Source of the DNA: Verrucomicrobiota bacterium
GTDB taxonomy: Bacteria; Verrucomicrobiota; Verrucomicrobiia; Verrucomicrobiales; DEV007
Direction of reading: 5' to 3'
Length of the DNA stretch: 64,000 nt
NCBI GenBank assembly: GCA_020630975.1
Contig: JAHDID010000001.1
Location: 141,687 to 205,686 of the forward strand
Positions within the stretch are counted from its first letter, which is position 1. Each line of letters begins with the position of its first letter. The notes under the pieces were generated by a model. The model worked only from the letters and a program-made list of their open reading frames with translations, was not told the DNA's origin and did no database searches. Of the stretch, positions 28,894 through 39,645 are shown piece after piece. A program made the translations under genes and the position numbers.

Positions 28894-29781
28894 TCACTCC
28901 ACAGCTGCGGCCAGTTCCGCTGCGCGTTTACGAGACCCATCTGCTAGTCGATCCAGAGGTAGTGTAAAGGTATCTTTTCCACCCTCTTTCTGGATGGTGA
29001 CTTGATCGCCATCCAGAGCTACAAACTTGGCCCGAATCTTCACCCCGGTTGAGCTGTACCAATCTTCGAATTGGAATAACTCAGCAGCTTTCTCCGCCTT
29101 AGATTGCTCCGCCATGAGCTTGGCATAGCGGACTGCAGTATCCACCAGCTGATTCGTCCTGACAGCCTGCTGATTGCCCCCCCTTTCGATCGTCAACACC
29201 GAGCCATCCTTGGATAGACTCACAAAATTGCCAATATAGGTCGAATCACTCCCTCTCACGCCCCAGCGAGCCGGCGGCGCTTTATCCACGCCCCCGGTGT
29301 CCGAACTACCGCTCTCCAGATTATCCTTCACCAGGTCGCGGATGTCGCGATAGGTTCGACTATTCTTCAGATCATTGTGCGAGGCATACTGCCAAAACTC
29401 CAATCCATCAGGTGAAGTGATCACAGCCCGTGGCACGATGTTCTTTCTACCATCATCTCGAAAGAACCCTCCATAGGCCGCTGGCGGTACCGTGCCGAAC
29501 TTTCGATCCGAACCATCTCGAAAGTCGATAAACACAATCACCGAATGACGGGCAAACTCGCGAAACACAGTCGTACCGACTGTGGCACAAGAGCCTCACC
29601 GAGAAGCCGGATTAGTGATCACAAAGGCAAGTCCTTTACCTTCCTCGATCGCTTTCTGGCGCGCCTCTTCCACGGTATCCACCGTAAAAGCACTACGCGG
29701 CACTCGAAACTCCGCCTGACTGACTGAAACCAGCAGCGAAGCTGCCACCATATAGAGAGAGAATAACTTTGGGGAAGTCAT
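28894..29781 (-). CDS. Predicted selenoprotein: thioredoxin-like protein with SHD1-like tail, one in-frame UGA
   Basis: 295 aa if UGA at 29598-29596 is Sec (residue 62). The start at 29781 gives a signal peptide (SLYMVAASLLVSVSQA). The sequence FVITNPASRUGSCATV then FREFARHSVIVFIDFRD fits a thioredoxin-like strand-UxxC-helix. The last 60 residues (GVKIRAKFVALDGDQVTI, TFTLPLDRLADGSRK) resemble an SHD1 domain. Without Sec decoding the gene splits into two frames, the second lacking a start near the domain edge. A near-perfect SECIS-like hairpin follows the UGA. Periplasmic redox function is inferred. Confidence 0.8.
29566..29584 (-). promoter_or_regulatory. Candidate bacterial SECIS hairpin
   Basis: Seven perfect pairs (CACAGTC/GACTGTG) close a five-base loop GGTAC, starting 12 nt after the UGA at 29598-29596. 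Geometry and loop match the element in the HMA selenoprotein. Confidence 0.8.
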
Positions 29782-29825: not shown

Positions 29826-30242
29826 TCACCCCTGCTCCACCACTATCAGGTACACCCAATTAACCAGAACCAAACCCAATAGGAACAGCCAGAACATCGC
29901 ACGCGCTCGACCACCTACGATCTCCACTCGCCCACGAAATAACACCCGCACCACCAGCAACACAGCAGCAAATGGAACGCCTACTGCTACGAGAGGATTC
30001 ATAGCCATAGCTTTGACCGGCTGCCCACTTAGCAAAAGAAAACTAGCACGACTCCCGCCGCAGAGAAAACAAGGCTGCCCTGTGACCAAACGAAAGACGC
30101 AAGGAACGACTCGCACGCCGTAGGCTTGGCCAATGAAGTAGGCCGCCACTATGGCTCCAAAAAATAAGCTGACACAAAGCGCTAGCGGCAGTGTCAGCCA
30201 ATTCACCTGCTGCGCCCGGTCGACCTTCACTAGCCGAATCAT
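29826..30242 (-). CDS. DUF2752 membrane protein
   Basis: 138 aa with three or four membrane segments. It carries the family pattern TGQPCFLCGGSRA (residues about 54-66) and MNPLVAV. The family has no firm function. It lies upstream of the thioredoxin-like selenoprotein on the same strand. Confidence 0.8.
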   Translation of the reverse strand: MIRLVKVDRAQQVNWLTLPLALCVSLFFGAIVAAYFIGQAYGVRVVPCVFRLVTGQPCFLCGGSRASFLLLSGQPVKAMAMNPLVAVGVPFAAVLLVVRVLFRGRVEIVGGRARAMFWLFLLGLVLVNWVYLIVVEQG

Positions 30243-30267
30243 CGGACGCGCCTATCAAACTAGAGGT

Positions 30268-30555
30268 CTAGAAACTTCTGCCGCCTACCTGCTGAAATAA
30301 CTCAAAGAAAGTCGGCCCCATCACCGCAATCGCGATAGCGACACCGACGACGCTTAGGATCAGCAGGATCGTCCCAACGATACCAATGACCATTCCCAAC
30401 TTAGTCTGATCTCGCCCTTCGGGATCCATCAGACCTGCATCCATTTCAGCGAGATCCTTCTTTCCCATCACCCACGCAAAGATCGCACAAAAGGAACAAA
30501 CCAGAATACCAAGGATACCTAGGATCAGGATGAGACTACTTCTGTGCGCTTTCAT
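30268..30555 (-). CDS. Small DUF4190-like membrane protein
   Basis: 95 aa. Two long hydrophobic segments flank a short charged loop (GKKDLAEMDAGLMDPEG, KLGMVIGIVGTI). This arrangement is typical of DUF4190. It probably forms a unit with the DUF2752 gene downstream. Confidence 0.68.
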   Translation of the reverse strand: MKAHRSSLILILGILGILVCSFCAIFAWVMGKKDLAEMDAGLMDPEGRDQTKLGMVIGIVGTILLILSVVGVAIAIAVMGPTFFELFQQVGGRSF

Positions 30556-30602
30556 TAGGTGCTGAGGTGATTGACGTGAATTGGGTCGGCGTAATATAAA
30601 CT

Positions 30603-32969
30603 CTAGAAACGGAAACCTGCCTTTACACCGATGATGCGAGGATCGCCCACTTGGACTTGGCCTGCAGGACTTGCACCTCGATTAGTGATGTATAGTTCAT
30701 CACCGATATTACTACTCCAAATAGTAGCATACCAGCTACCGACATCGTATGTGAGAGCTGCGTTCACCACAGTTCGAGCATCGTTAATGGCCGTATTCTG
30801 CGGACCAACAAACGAATCAGACTGATAATTTGCATTCACATTGAAATAAAGATTATCAGTCAAAATCGTAGTAGCACCAACCCCAAAAGAAGTCTCAGGT
30901 GCGAAAGGGAAACTATTTCCTGCAAAATTATTAGCACCGTCGATAAACTGATCAAATTCAGTCTCGGCCAAGGCTACGGAAGCGTAAAGCTGCAACGAAT
31001 CGCTAGGTGTATACTCAACTAACCCCTCAAAACCGTATTGATTCGATTCACCAGCATTGCTTGTTAGCACCAAAGGATTTTGCGTGGATATCGCGATCTG
31101 CTGATCCTCCCATTGGGTGTAGTAAAGATTAGCAGCGATATCAAAGTCTCCTACATCCTCTGCACGATAGGCCAGCTCGTAGGTCTTGGTATACTCTGGA
31201 TCAAAGGTATTGATGCCATTACTACCAGCGAAACCGCTAAAATCGACTTCTACTCCGCCAGATCGGTATGATTCCTTGTATAAGGCAGACAAGCTTGTGT
31301 CATCATCAAATTTGTAAGTCAATGATGCCGAAGGGAGCAAGACCCCAAAATTAGTATTCTCCTGGCCAACACCACCTGGAAAAGCTCCCTGTAGGGCTGG
31401 AACACCTGCATTGAACGTTGCTGGGGAAGTCCACCCATACACCGTATTAGTAAACTGATCTGTATCTACGTTATCATAGCGCAATCCTGCTCTGAAGATA
31501 AGATCATTAGCCACGTCATATTCGACCTCACCAAAGAAGGCGTAATTTTTAAACTTCGACTCAATATCAGTATCGAGGTCCAAAACGATATTTCCAGGCG
31601 CTGGAGTAAACAACGGGAACCCAATAGCTCTGTTCAAATTAGGCCCTAAGTCTGTAAAACTCTGATCTAACCCCACCGTGTTAAAATCAACAGTTAGATC
31701 TCGGTCCGAATAATAAGCTCCGATCTGACCACGCAACCTAGTGCCTTCATCATACTTAAAGCGAACCTCACCAGTAAACTCCTCCGAAGTCTCACCAGCG
31801 ATCAATGTCCCAAACGGAGCTGCCGTTCCATCAAAATCATCCTGACGACCATACTTACTATCGTAATAAGTGAACCGAGTGTCCATCGTCCACGCATCGT
31901 TTACCTCGATCTCGAAAAGCTGAGACAGCGCGTGGGTCTCGACCTCTTCAAAACCATAATCATTTGAGAAATCAACTCTAGCGCCAGGATTCGCTGAGTT
32001 AACCAAATCTGCACTCTTGAAAGTGTCATTAAAACTATAAGAAGTCAGCGCACGAACCCCTGTGCCATTGTCGATGAGAAACTTGCCTCTCCAAAATTTG
32101 CTGTCCAATTCATCAACATCGCGACCTAAAGTAAGATTATCGATCGTTCCATCGTCCTTTATATAGCCTCCTGAAAAACGAAACGCAGCGTTATCGCCGA
32201 TTGGGATGTTAATGGTTCCCAATGTAGAGGTCCCATTATCGCTATAGATCCCCTGCTCCATGTTAAACTCGGTTTCCTCTAGGACCGGATCATTCGTCTC
32301 GATCACGATCGCCCCGGCGACTGCACTCTTTCCGATGTTGAGCGACTGACCACCGCGCAAGACTTCGACCTGCTTCACATCCCAAGTCTGCAGAGGGTCG
32401 ACTCGGATATCTAGACGATCTAGCGACACACCATCGCGGATCACTGCGATCGTCGGGCGAAACGCATTGCCTGCCCCTATTCCATCTGGAAATCCACGCA
32501 CACCACGAATCGAGTAGCCGAAATCTTTACCCACCAAGCTCACACCCGGAGTCCGGTCGATGGCCTCGGTGATGGTGGTAATGTTTTGGCTAGCAAGGTC
32601 TGCGCCATCAAGAACCTCCACACTGTTAGTCGTCTCGACGATCGTCCGATTAATCTGCTCCCCTACGAGCACCTCAGGCTCTGGCTGAGTCACGATAACT
32701 GGCTCGTTTGAAACATTGGGACGAGGCGCCTCCACTGGCGGAGGAGGTGTGTAGGTAGGCTGCGGAGCAGGTGCTGGCGCAGGAGCCGCCGCCGCAGGTG
32801 CAGGCGCACTCTCAACTACCGTCTCGCCTAGCGAACCGATATCCTGAGCCTGAGCATAGCCCAGAAAAGTCGCCCCAAAAGCTGCCGCAGCAAATGCACC
32901 AGCCGAAAGTCTGTCAATGGTCGTAGAGGTCATCGCCCCACGATTAGAATAACGCTCAGATCGGTTCAA
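30603..32969 (-). CDS. TonB-dependent outer-membrane receptor
   Basis: 788 aa; start MTSTTID at 32933 gives a clean signal peptide ending AQAQ. Residues about 45-95 are a Pro/Ala-rich linker. The plug domain follows (VEVLDGADLASQNITTITEAID, IRGVRGFPDGIGAGNAFRP in part), then a 22-strand barrel ending in the aromatic signal GVKAGFRF. The substrate is unknown; a siderophore or other large nutrient is typical. An ExbD gene lies about 0.9 kb away. Confidence 0.9.
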   Translation of the reverse strand: MNRSERYSNRGAMTSTTIDRLSAGAFAAAAFGATFLGYAQAQDIGSLGETVVESAPAPAAAAPAPAPAPQPTYTPPPPVEAPRPNVSNEPVIVTQPEPEVLVGEQINRTIVETTNSVEVLDGADLASQNITTITEAIDRTPGVSLVGKDFGYSIRGVRGFPDGIGAGNAFRPTIAVIRDGVSLDRLDIRVDPLQTWDVKQVEVLRGGQSLNIGKSAVAGAIVIETNDPVLEETEFNMEQGIYSDNGTSTLGTINIPIGDNAAFRFSGGYIKDDGTIDNLTLGRDVDELDSKFWRGKFLIDNGTGVRALTSYSFNDTFKSADLVNSANPGARVDFSNDYGFEEVETHALSQLFEIEVNDAWTMDTRFTYYDSKYGRQDDFDGTAAPFGTLIAGETSEEFTGEVRFKYDEGTRLRGQIGAYYSDRDLTVDFNTVGLDQSFTDLGPNLNRAIGFPLFTPAPGNIVLDLDTDIESKFKNYAFFGEVEYDVANDLIFRAGLRYDNVDTDQFTNTVYGWTSPATFNAGVPALQGAFPGGVGQENTNFGVLLPSASLTYKFDDDTSLSALYKESYRSGGVEVDFSGFAGSNGINTFDPEYTKTYELAYRAEDVGDFDIAANLYYTQWEDQQIAISTQNPLVLTSNAGESNQYGFEGLVEYTPSDSLQLYASVALAETEFDQFIDGANNFAGNSFPFAPETSFGVGATTILTDNLYFNVNANYQSDSFVGPQNTAINDARTVVNAALTYDVGSWYATIWSSNIGDELYITNRGASPAGQVQVGDPRIIGVKAGFRF

Positions 32970-36002: not shown

Positions 36003-37064
36003 ATGGGTGGTAGGATAGAAAGAGTGGCGTATCCGGATGCACAGAGAGACGTCGACTACAGCGAGGTGATCGATGTGCGTGCCCCCTGCGAGTACGCAGA
36101 GGATCACATCTCCGGCGCGCTGAATCTGCCGGTTTTGGACAATTCGCAGCGAGTCGAAGTGGGCACCGTTTACAAGCAGGATTCCACCTTCAAAGCCCGC
36201 CAGATGGGGGCCGCCATGGTCTCGCGGAATATCGCTGAACACATCGATAGCCATTTTTCTGGGAAAGATCGAGACTACCGCCCCCTCGTCTACTGCTGGC
36301 GGGGCGGCCAGCGCTCCGGCAGCCTAGCCACCGTGCTCAGCGACATAGGCTGGCACGTCTGTGTGATCGAGGGTGGCTACCGCACCTATCGCCGTCACGT
36401 GATCGAGCAGATCGATGCTCTGGCCCCCGAGCTGAGATTCATCGTGCTCAATGGCTACACCGGCTCTGGCAAGACCCTCATGCTCCATGCTCTGCGCGAG
36501 CACGGCGAGCAGATCCTAGACCTCGAGGGCCTAGCCAATCACAAAGGCTCAGTATTCGGCGGCGATAGCGAGCATCCTCAGCCTGCACAGAAGCGCTTTG
36601 AATCGCTGATCTACGATCAACTGAACGGATTCGACCCAAAGCGCCCCATCTACATCGAGGCCGAAAGCGCCAAAATCGGCAAACTCAACCTCCCGACTCC
36701 GCTCTGGCAGCGGATGAAAGAATCAACCGTCATCGAGCTAGACTCTCCAGTCGAAGCCCGGGCCCGCTACCTCACACGGGACTACAGCGATTGGCTAGGC
36801 GACCTCGATCGCATCCACAGCACCATCGATAGGCTGCAGAGCTTTCACCCCACACCTCTGCTACAAAAGTGGAAAGACATGGCCCAGTCCAGTCAGTGGG
36901 ACGACCTAGCCACCTCGCTACTGGTGGAGCACTACGACCAGCGCTATCGGCCAGCCTCCGGCGCTAGCTCCTTTCAGCCTGCCCGAGCGATCGTCCAGGT
37001 GCAGGCGCACGACGCTACCAGCCTCCAAGAGAGCATGAGAGAGCTACTGACCTGCGCTGTATGA
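36003..37064 (+). CDS. selU: tRNA 2-selenouridine synthase SelU/MnmH
   Basis: 353 aa. An N-terminal rhodanese domain carries the active Cys in YCWRGGQRSGS (Cys98). A P-loop domain (NGYTGSGKT, about residue 150) follows. SelU uses selenophosphate to exchange sulfur for selenium in the wobble uridine of Lys, Glu and Gln tRNAs. It lies beside a two-Sec selenoprotein, consistent with active selenium metabolism in this organism. Its last codons overlap the next gene by 4 nt. Confidence 0.93.
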   Translation: MGGRIERVAYPDAQRDVDYSEVIDVRAPCEYAEDHISGALNLPVLDNSQRVEVGTVYKQDSTFKARQMGAAMVSRNIAEHIDSHFSGKDRDYRPLVYCWRGGQRSGSLATVLSDIGWHVCVIEGGYRTYRRHVIEQIDALAPELRFIVLNGYTGSGKTLMLHALREHGEQILDLEGLANHKGSVFGGDSEHPQPAQKRFESLIYDQLNGFDPKRPIYIEAESAKIGKLNLPTPLWQRMKESTVIELDSPVEARARYLTRDYSDWLGDLDRIHSTIDRLQSFHPTPLLQKWKDMAQSSQWDDLATSLLVEHYDQRYRPASGASSFQPARAIVQVQAHDATSLQESMRELLTCAV

Positions 37065-38505: not shown

Positions 38506-39645
38506 ATGATCTACCTCGACTCGAATGCCACGACTCAAGTCCACCCACAAGTGGTGGACGCTATGCTCCCCTTTCTCACCGATCATTTTCACAATCCATC
38601 CAGCGGTTACTCCGCAGGCCAATCCGTAAAAGCCGCCATCGCCAAGGCCCGCGGCCAAGTCGCTAGTCTCATCGGAGCCCAGCCAGAAGAGATCGTCTTC
38701 ACAGGCTGCGGCACCGAGTCGAATAACATGGCCATCAAGGCTCTGGCACGCGAGATCGGTAGGAAATCATCTAAAGTCGTCGTCAGCGAGATCGAGCACA
38801 GCGCCGTGCTCCGCCCTACCGAGGCCATGGCAGCTGTGGGCTTCGACGTCCAGCGGGTCGGTGTCGACGCCTATGGCCGACTCGATCTCGCCGCTCTTGA
38901 GCGAGCTGTCGATTCAGATGTGCCCGGTTTCCTTTCCCTCATGTGGGCCAACAATGAAACCGGTGTCATCCAGCCCATCGCCGAAGCCACCGCTATCGCT
39001 CAGGCTGCCGGCTGGCATGTCCATACCGATGCGATACAAGCCGTCGGCAAAGTCCCCGTCCGGGTCGACGAAGTGCCTGTCGACTATCTCTCTATCAGCG
39101 GCCACAAGTTTCACGCGCCAAAGGGAGTCGGCGTTCTCTACATCCGAAGCGGCAGCCCATTCGAGCCGATGATCCGTGGCGGCGGACAAGAAAACGGCCA
39201 CCGCAGCGGCACCGAAAATGTGCCCTACATTGTCGGTCTCGGTGCCGCCGCCGAGATCATGGAGAAAGAAATGCAGCCCGGAGCAGGCCTCGAGCGAGTC
39301 GGTCGGCTCCGCGACCATCTCGAGACCAGCCTGCAGGAAAGCCTAGATGGCGTCCGCCTCAATGGCTCTCGCCAGCACCGTACCACCAATGTCGCCCACG
39401 TCGCATTCGATGGCTGCGTAGCTACCGACATGCTCCCCCGCCTCGATGCCGCCGGCATCCTCTGCTCCGCCGGTAGCGCCTGCATGACTGGCAAATCAAA
39501 TCCCAGCCACGTGCAAAAAGCCATGGGCTACAGCGATGCCCATGCCTTCAGCAGTCTCCGTCTTTCCCTATCGATATTCTCTACTCAAGAGGAAGTCGAC
39601 CAAGCTATCGAAAAAATCGTAGCTGTCGCGAAGGCGTGTCGATAG
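38506..39645 (+). CDS. Cysteine desulfurase (NifS/IscS-like)
   Basis: 379-aa PLP enzyme. The PLP Lys lies in SGHKFHAPKG, the substrate-binding His/Asp in HTDAIQAVG, and the mobile catalytic Cys in CSAGSACMTG (residue about 327). It mobilises sulfur, and NifS-type enzymes can also release selenium from selenocysteine. Closeness to selU and the two-Sec gene makes a selenium-related role plausible but not proven. It overlaps the next small gene by 10 nt. Confidence 0.92.
   Translation: MIYLDSNATTQVHPQVVDAMLPFLTDHFHNPSSGYSAGQSVKAAIAKARGQVASLIGAQPEEIVFTGCGTESNNMAIKALAREIGRKSSKVVVSEIEHSAVLRPTEAMAAVGFDVQRVGVDAYGRLDLAALERAVDSDVPGFLSLMWANNETGVIQPIAEATAIAQAAGWHVHTDAIQAVGKVPVRVDEVPVDYLSISGHKFHAPKGVGVLYIRSGSPFEPMIRGGGQENGHRSGTENVPYIVGLGAAAEIMEKEMQPGAGLERVGRLRDHLETSLQESLDGVRLNGSRQHRTTNVAHVAFDGCVATDMLPRLDAAGILCSAGSACMTGKSNPSHVQKAMGYSDAHAFSSLRLSLSIFSTQEEVDQAIEKIVAVAKACR

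Follow-up and report, generated by a model that had tools for sequence, protein, structure and literature searches.

We analyzed a stretch of 64,000 nucleotides (here, the window) from the draft genome of a Verrucomicrobiota bacterium (GenBank assembly GCA_020630975.1, contig JAHDID010000001.1; 7.1 Mb in 158 contigs), in which a thioredoxin-like selenoprotein fused to an SHD1-like domain had been predicted by reading the sequence. The predicted coordinates (28894-29781) were correct, and the strand, absent from the original prediction, is the minus strand. Its read-through translation reproduced a 295-codon frame in which the sole in-frame TGA is codon 62, within the motif NPASRUGSC (where U is selenocysteine [Sec]), followed by 233 residues and a TGA stop. 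Mechanical open reading frame (ORF) finding breaks this gene in two, an 87-residue ORF starting with TTG and a 224-residue ORF starting with GTG (28894-29568). Selenoproteins are routinely misannotated because UGA is read as a stop. The window protein carries the marks of a signal peptide (a basic n-region, a hydrophobic core, and an SQA cleavage-like site), and the N-termini of the aligned family members resemble this region. Table 1 lists the features of the gene.

Table 1 Features of the selenoprotein gene, in window coordinates
Feature	Position	Strand	Description or evidence
Selenoprotein gene	28894..29781	minus	295 residues; ATG at 29781, TGA stop at 28896-28894; read-through translation
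UGA codon for selenocysteine 62 (UGSC motif)	29596..29598	minus	TGA at the motif in 46 distinct homologous sequences; Cys in non-Sec homologues
Predicted signal peptide, residues 1-23 (MTSPKLFSLYMVAASLLVSVSQA)	29713..29781	minus	Read by eye from the sequence
Thioredoxin-like domain, residues 26-158, with conserved Pro117 (cis-Pro position)	29308..29706	minus	AlphaFold2 model, VIA, alignment A1
Bacterial SECIS hairpin CACAGTC-GGTAC-GACTGTG	29566..29584	minus	Fold, covariation, invariant loop GT
First SHD1-like domain, residues 170-237	29071..29274	minus	Separate model m036ab98d166d versus 2hbp
Second (C-terminal) SHD1-like domain, residues 236-294	28900..29076	minus	VIA, Foldseek, A1 profile versus 2hbp

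The searched genomes and public contigs contained 46 distinct family sequences with an in-frame TGA in the same motif, nearly all from Verrucomicrobiales, and the named carriers are metagenome-assembled genomes and strains of this group. With alignment A4 as the query, all 25 loci found in public genome contigs had the TGA, including those of Rubritalea marina DSM 17716 and Roseibacillus ishigakijimensis KCTC 12986; the window protein as the sole query had no match in public genome contigs, and the family had none in plasmids and viral contigs. One Sec homologue (L010, from G079) aligned over its full length with the window protein across the UGA and has its own TGA at the matching position (35% over 282 columns; E, 2e-47). 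The best Cys counterpart, L064, is equally long and likewise has two SHD1-like domains (33% over 302 columns; E, 5e-39). Cys replaces Sec in many of the non-TGA homologues, as CPLC (L064 and L066), CHHC (L016), or CPKC (L068), and Akkermansia-like genomes have a homologue with a single Cys (CPLA). Some homologues (L012/L105 and L083) have neither Sec nor Cys at the active site and, judging from their motifs, are probably redox-dead forms. Nine close pairs were compared for dN/dS downstream of the UGA; eight gave values below 0.25 and one (L102/L103) gave 0.56, and these low values indicate that the downstream part is translated and constrained. An SHD1-like domain was fused in frame in 39 of the 46 Sec forms, compared with 11 of the 38 non-Sec sequences. 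Thus, where the original prediction had considered that Cys homologues might be missing and the two halves might be separate genes in relatives, we found Cys homologues, with the fusion as the usual form; thioredoxin-only forms do occur (Akkermansia-like Cys forms and UHAC Sec forms).

Further evidence comes from the RNA immediately past the UGA. The window hairpin, CACAGUC-GGUAC-GACUGUG, starts 11 nt past the UGA and places its loop at 18 nt, and the local fold at this site had a z-score of -2.24 relative to shuffles. It conforms to the published rules for bacterial selenocysteine insertion sequence (SECIS) elements (loop of 3 to 9 nt, stem of 4 to 16 bp, a G within the first two positions of the loop, spacing of 16 to 37 nt, and minimum free energy of less than -7.5 kcal/mol; PMC13188914). 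Among the 55 window TGAs with at least 35 codons before and at least 60 after, only the UGA at 29598-29596 combines a SECIS-like hairpin with a redox motif. Across an alignment of 25 gap-free sequences, the six core stem pairs were formed in 92.7% of cells (24 to 57% in slid controls), with two-sided changes at five of the six pairs; the covariation score was reached by none of 500 shuffles, a count that is inflated by related sequences. The loop G and U were invariant in all 25, in agreement with the published model (PMC13188914). The loop codon is accordingly NGT, though the encoded amino acid differs (Ser, Gly, Arg, or Cys); where it is Ser, the codon was AGT in 23 of 23 cases, while AGT makes up 12% of the other Ser codons in the same domains. 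At the same positions, 27 of 33 Sec forms make five or six core pairs, and the 35 non-Sec forms all make between zero and four; of the six other Sec forms, four have a longer spacer ahead of the stem and an evident shifted hairpin. The predicted 7-bp perfect hairpin with a GGTAC loop at the right distance from the UGA was therefore borne out by its fold and the published rules, and the SECIS check that had been proposed is backed by covariation across the family.

The source genome encodes a tRNA-Sec with a TCA anticodon (58.6 bits) together with selB (296.5 bits), selA (522 bits), and selD (301 bits). Matches to RF01852 were counted as tRNA-Sec when they reached at least 51.8 bits and were not called Ser, with ARAGORN applied to some of them; near-cutoff matches (about 47 to 53 bits, 84 to 90 nt) in genomes without a Sec form, and in G029, were rejected as tRNA-Ser by ARAGORN. 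On this basis, tRNA-Sec was present in 16 of the 20 genomes with a Sec form (the other four being drafts that are 75 to 95% complete) and in 1 of the 27 with non-Sec forms only (G043), a comparison that is uncorrected for genome kinship and is thus an association only. R. marina DSM 17716 and R. ishigakijimensis KCTC 12986 each had a tRNA-Sec match above the cutoff. A DsbD-type transmembrane protein is also encoded in the source genome. In addition, selD (L130, G000:C77:100264-101181, minus) lies inside a 763-residue open frame and is probably fused to another domain, and the gene adjoining tRNA-Sec (L001 683-1480, minus; G000:C137:28521-28694) likewise ends in an SHD1 domain. Within the window, mnmH (tRNA 2-selenouridine synthase; NF008752; E, 5.6e-135) is found at 36003-37064 (plus), ca. 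6 kb from the selenoprotein gene, and a NifS-like cysteine desulfurase, which might be a selenium donor, at 38506-39645 (plus).

The AlphaFold2 model of the protein (m3c304cd173d8; mean predicted local distance difference test [pLDDT] score, 85.5) has the thioredoxin topology; Sec62 follows the first strand and precedes the next helix, where the UGA had been predicted to fall, and Pro117, invariant in alignment A1, is at the cis-Pro position. Residues ca. 26 to 158 matched many thioredoxins (VIA Z, 8 to 9.7). The predicted C-terminal SHD1-like domain is present, matching the SHD1 domain of Sla1 (PDB 2hbp) over residues 236 to 294 by VIA (Z, 8.3; root mean square deviation [rmsd], 2.5 over 58) and Foldseek (rmsd, 1.4 over 57 columns; TMt, 0.74), but the count of one was wrong: a separate model of residues 170 to 237 (m036ab98d166d; pLDDT, 88) also had 2hbp as its top match (Z, 7.7; rmsd, 2.1 over 57; next match Z, 5.4). 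The sequence-profile search with A1 found TXNDC12 (E, about 0.1) and 2hbp (E, 0.22), both weak, in the matching regions. Because Foldseek E-values were weak (best, 1.5e-3), the fold assignments rest on Z, coverage, and the agreement of the profile search. The search for both domains that had been proposed thus recovered the two folds but no Pfam match in the window protein, in which a Pfam scan recognized neither domain and found no PDZ match. The cutoff of Thioredoxin_7 (PF13899) was not reached, with no match for the window protein and weak matches for 4 of 18 members (best E, 0.043). We use the label SHD1-like because the Pfam cutoffs were not reached. The source genome contains nine SHD1 domains above the Pfam cutoff, and 14 control genomes contain none.

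Taken together, these sequence-based comparisons make Sec insertion at the window UGA near certain, and the insertion site, the SECIS, the fold, and the domain order are strongly supported. The possibility that the UGA is an ordinary stop and that the ORF at 28894-29568 starts separately, making this locus two genes or a decayed gene, might draw on the GTG start of the downstream ORF and on two paralogues in the genome that look frame-broken. However, homology is gapless across the UGA in both TGA and Cys homologues, dozens of genomes share the conserved TGA, dN/dS is low past the UGA, and the SECIS covaries; on this comparative evidence, we rejected both the stop/restart and the pseudogene explanations as very improbable. 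A sequencing error for TGC or TGT, conceivable given that the window comes from a draft assembly, was rejected as even more improbable, since the same TGA recurs in independent assemblies, two of them from cultured strains, along with a SECIS that the Cys forms lack.

UxxC thioredoxin-like selenoproteins are, as a kind, well known, and an inventory from 2026, which covers 119 families and subfamilies of prokaryotic selenoproteins, contains many, none with SHD1 (PMC13188914), in line with the earlier claim that no selenoprotein with this domain order has been described. No family in that inventory and no NCBIfam or Pfam model fits the window protein. A literature text search for selenocysteine plus SHD1 found no paper among those with an open license, so that a mention elsewhere is possible, and little published selenoprotein work was found on Verrucomicrobiales. 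The Sec thioredoxins (PF00085) and thiol:disulfide interchange selenoproteins (PF13098) (PMC13188914, Table 1) share with it the thioredoxin fold, a UxxC heading the first helix, and a SECIS right past the UGA, while the window protein differs in its apparent export, its C-terminal SHD1-like domains, its distinct sequence family, and the lack of a Pfam thioredoxin match. The nearest by design is the Trx7/PDZ selenoprotein (NF041199), which also joins a thioredoxin-7-like domain to a peptide-binding-type domain, but with CxxU and PDZ instead of UxxC and SHD1-like domains, and its model has no match at the locus. The UGSC-containing protein (NF041046) shares only these letters, a chance likeness, given that UGPC is the motif in most members of this family and that no NCBIfam match was found. 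Among thioredoxin-like proteins that are solved or named, ERp18/TXNDC12 (AGR) and Thioredoxin_7 proteins came closest by profile (E, about 0.1) and were also among the fold matches; they are Cys based and have no SHD1. The SHD1 of yeast Sla1 has the same fold as both C-terminal domains (16% identity), but Sla1 is an intracellular protein, unlike the window protein with its putative export. Thioredoxin-SHD1 selenoproteins are therefore apparently an undescribed family with an unusual, recurrent domain order; the surprise is limited by the well-known kind and raised by the breadth of the family, the diversity of its paralogues, and the quality of the comparative evidence.

The paralogues vary at the redox center (UGPC, UGSC, URPC, UHAC, UGPS, and U-G-N-U), with UGPC in most members, and a single genome holds up to five Sec-encoding genes of the family, of which two are frame-broken as assembled. 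Several paralogues lie in the source genome itself. In L045 (G000:C31:101819-102181, plus), a pair of in-frame TGAs spaced 9 nt apart (YSPKUGNUGPAAAA), the second followed at 18 nt by a SECIS-like hairpin, possibly encodes a double-Sec U-x-x-U center. L043 (G000:C137:46725-46991, minus) and L044 (G000:C33:117011-117375, plus), the latter also with a TAG in the signal peptide region, are apparently frame-broken, with decay and assembly error indistinguishable. L083 (G000:C116:18744-19109, plus) is a thioredoxin-SHD1 paralogue whose active site (ANRQGEASRH) lacks both Sec and Cys; it is probably redox-dead. Tandem paralogues were also observed (L014, L015, L016, L048, and L049): L014/L015 are two Sec copies, and L016/L047 include Sec, CHHC, and apparently redox-dead tandem copies. 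The UGPS subfamily (L102, L103, L104, L114, and L115) has kept Sec while the resolving Cys is absent, which suggests a different catalytic cycle.

As to function, we consider it likely that the gene encodes a true selenoprotein, an exported thioredoxin-like thiol-disulfide oxidoreductase whose SHD1-like domains place the redox site. SelB with Sec-tRNA would bind the hairpin just past the UGA, inserting selenocysteine at position 62, and the signal peptide would direct export. Sec62 would then attack a substrate disulfide or oxidized thiol, with Cys65 resolving the selenenylsulfide that forms, and the Sec62/Cys65 pair might be re-reduced by a DsbD-type electron carrier in the membrane. Peptide binding has been proposed for SH3-fold domains in exported proteins of bacteria (PMC5906684); by analogy, the two SHD1-like domains, which have the SH3 fold, may recognize peptides of exported or envelope proteins and so bring the redox site to chosen partners. 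The window gene is one of several paralogues in its genome, within a Verrucomicrobiales family mostly of the thioredoxin-SHD1 form. More tentatively, and with somewhat less confidence than doubt, the exported multiparalogue family might constitute a targeted envelope redox system of Verrucomicrobiales in which the SHD1-like domains choose partners and the paralogues vary the redox center.

Two other explanations accept a real selenoprotein. The SHD1-like domains might be structural, serving dimerization or stability and binding no partner, as the thioredoxin-only forms (Akkermansia-like Cys and UHAC Sec) indicate that the redox domain can do without them; we regard this as rather unlikely, given that the fusion is kept in most Sec forms and that peptide binding is the role proposed for bacterial exported SH3-fold domains. 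Less probable still is the use of Sec for other chemistry (peroxidase, methionine-sulfoxide-type reduction, or metal/metalloid binding). The UGPS paralogues and the U-G-N-U paralogue speak for it, but in the window protein, as in most members, UxxC opens the first helix of the thioredoxin fold and a conserved Pro takes the cis-Pro position, the layout of a thiol-disulfide oxidoreductase. Several observations nevertheless weigh against a partner-targeted UxxC oxidoreductase as we describe it. The Sec paralogues without a resolving Cys mean that a UxxC mechanism cannot cover the whole family; neither the window protein nor any of the members scanned reached the cutoff of Pfam SHD1 (PF03983; best member E, 0.011); the hairpin of the window gene, with its perfect pairing, is yet unlike the family consensus in sequence; and no neighbor gene recurs across distant family members, where we found only tandem paralogues and close-relative synteny, so that the neighborhood does not help to name a partner or substrate.

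If the oxidoreductase function holds, the family gives a Verrucomicrobiales lineage a presumably exported set of selenium-based redox proteins and couples Sec to a peptide-binding-type domain. It also lets Sec, Cys, and redox-dead versions of a single protein be compared cleanly as they occur in nature, and cultured hosts are available for testing. Upstream of the window gene and on the same strand (29826-32969, minus) are genes for a DUF2752 protein, a DUF4190-like protein, and a TonB-dependent receptor.
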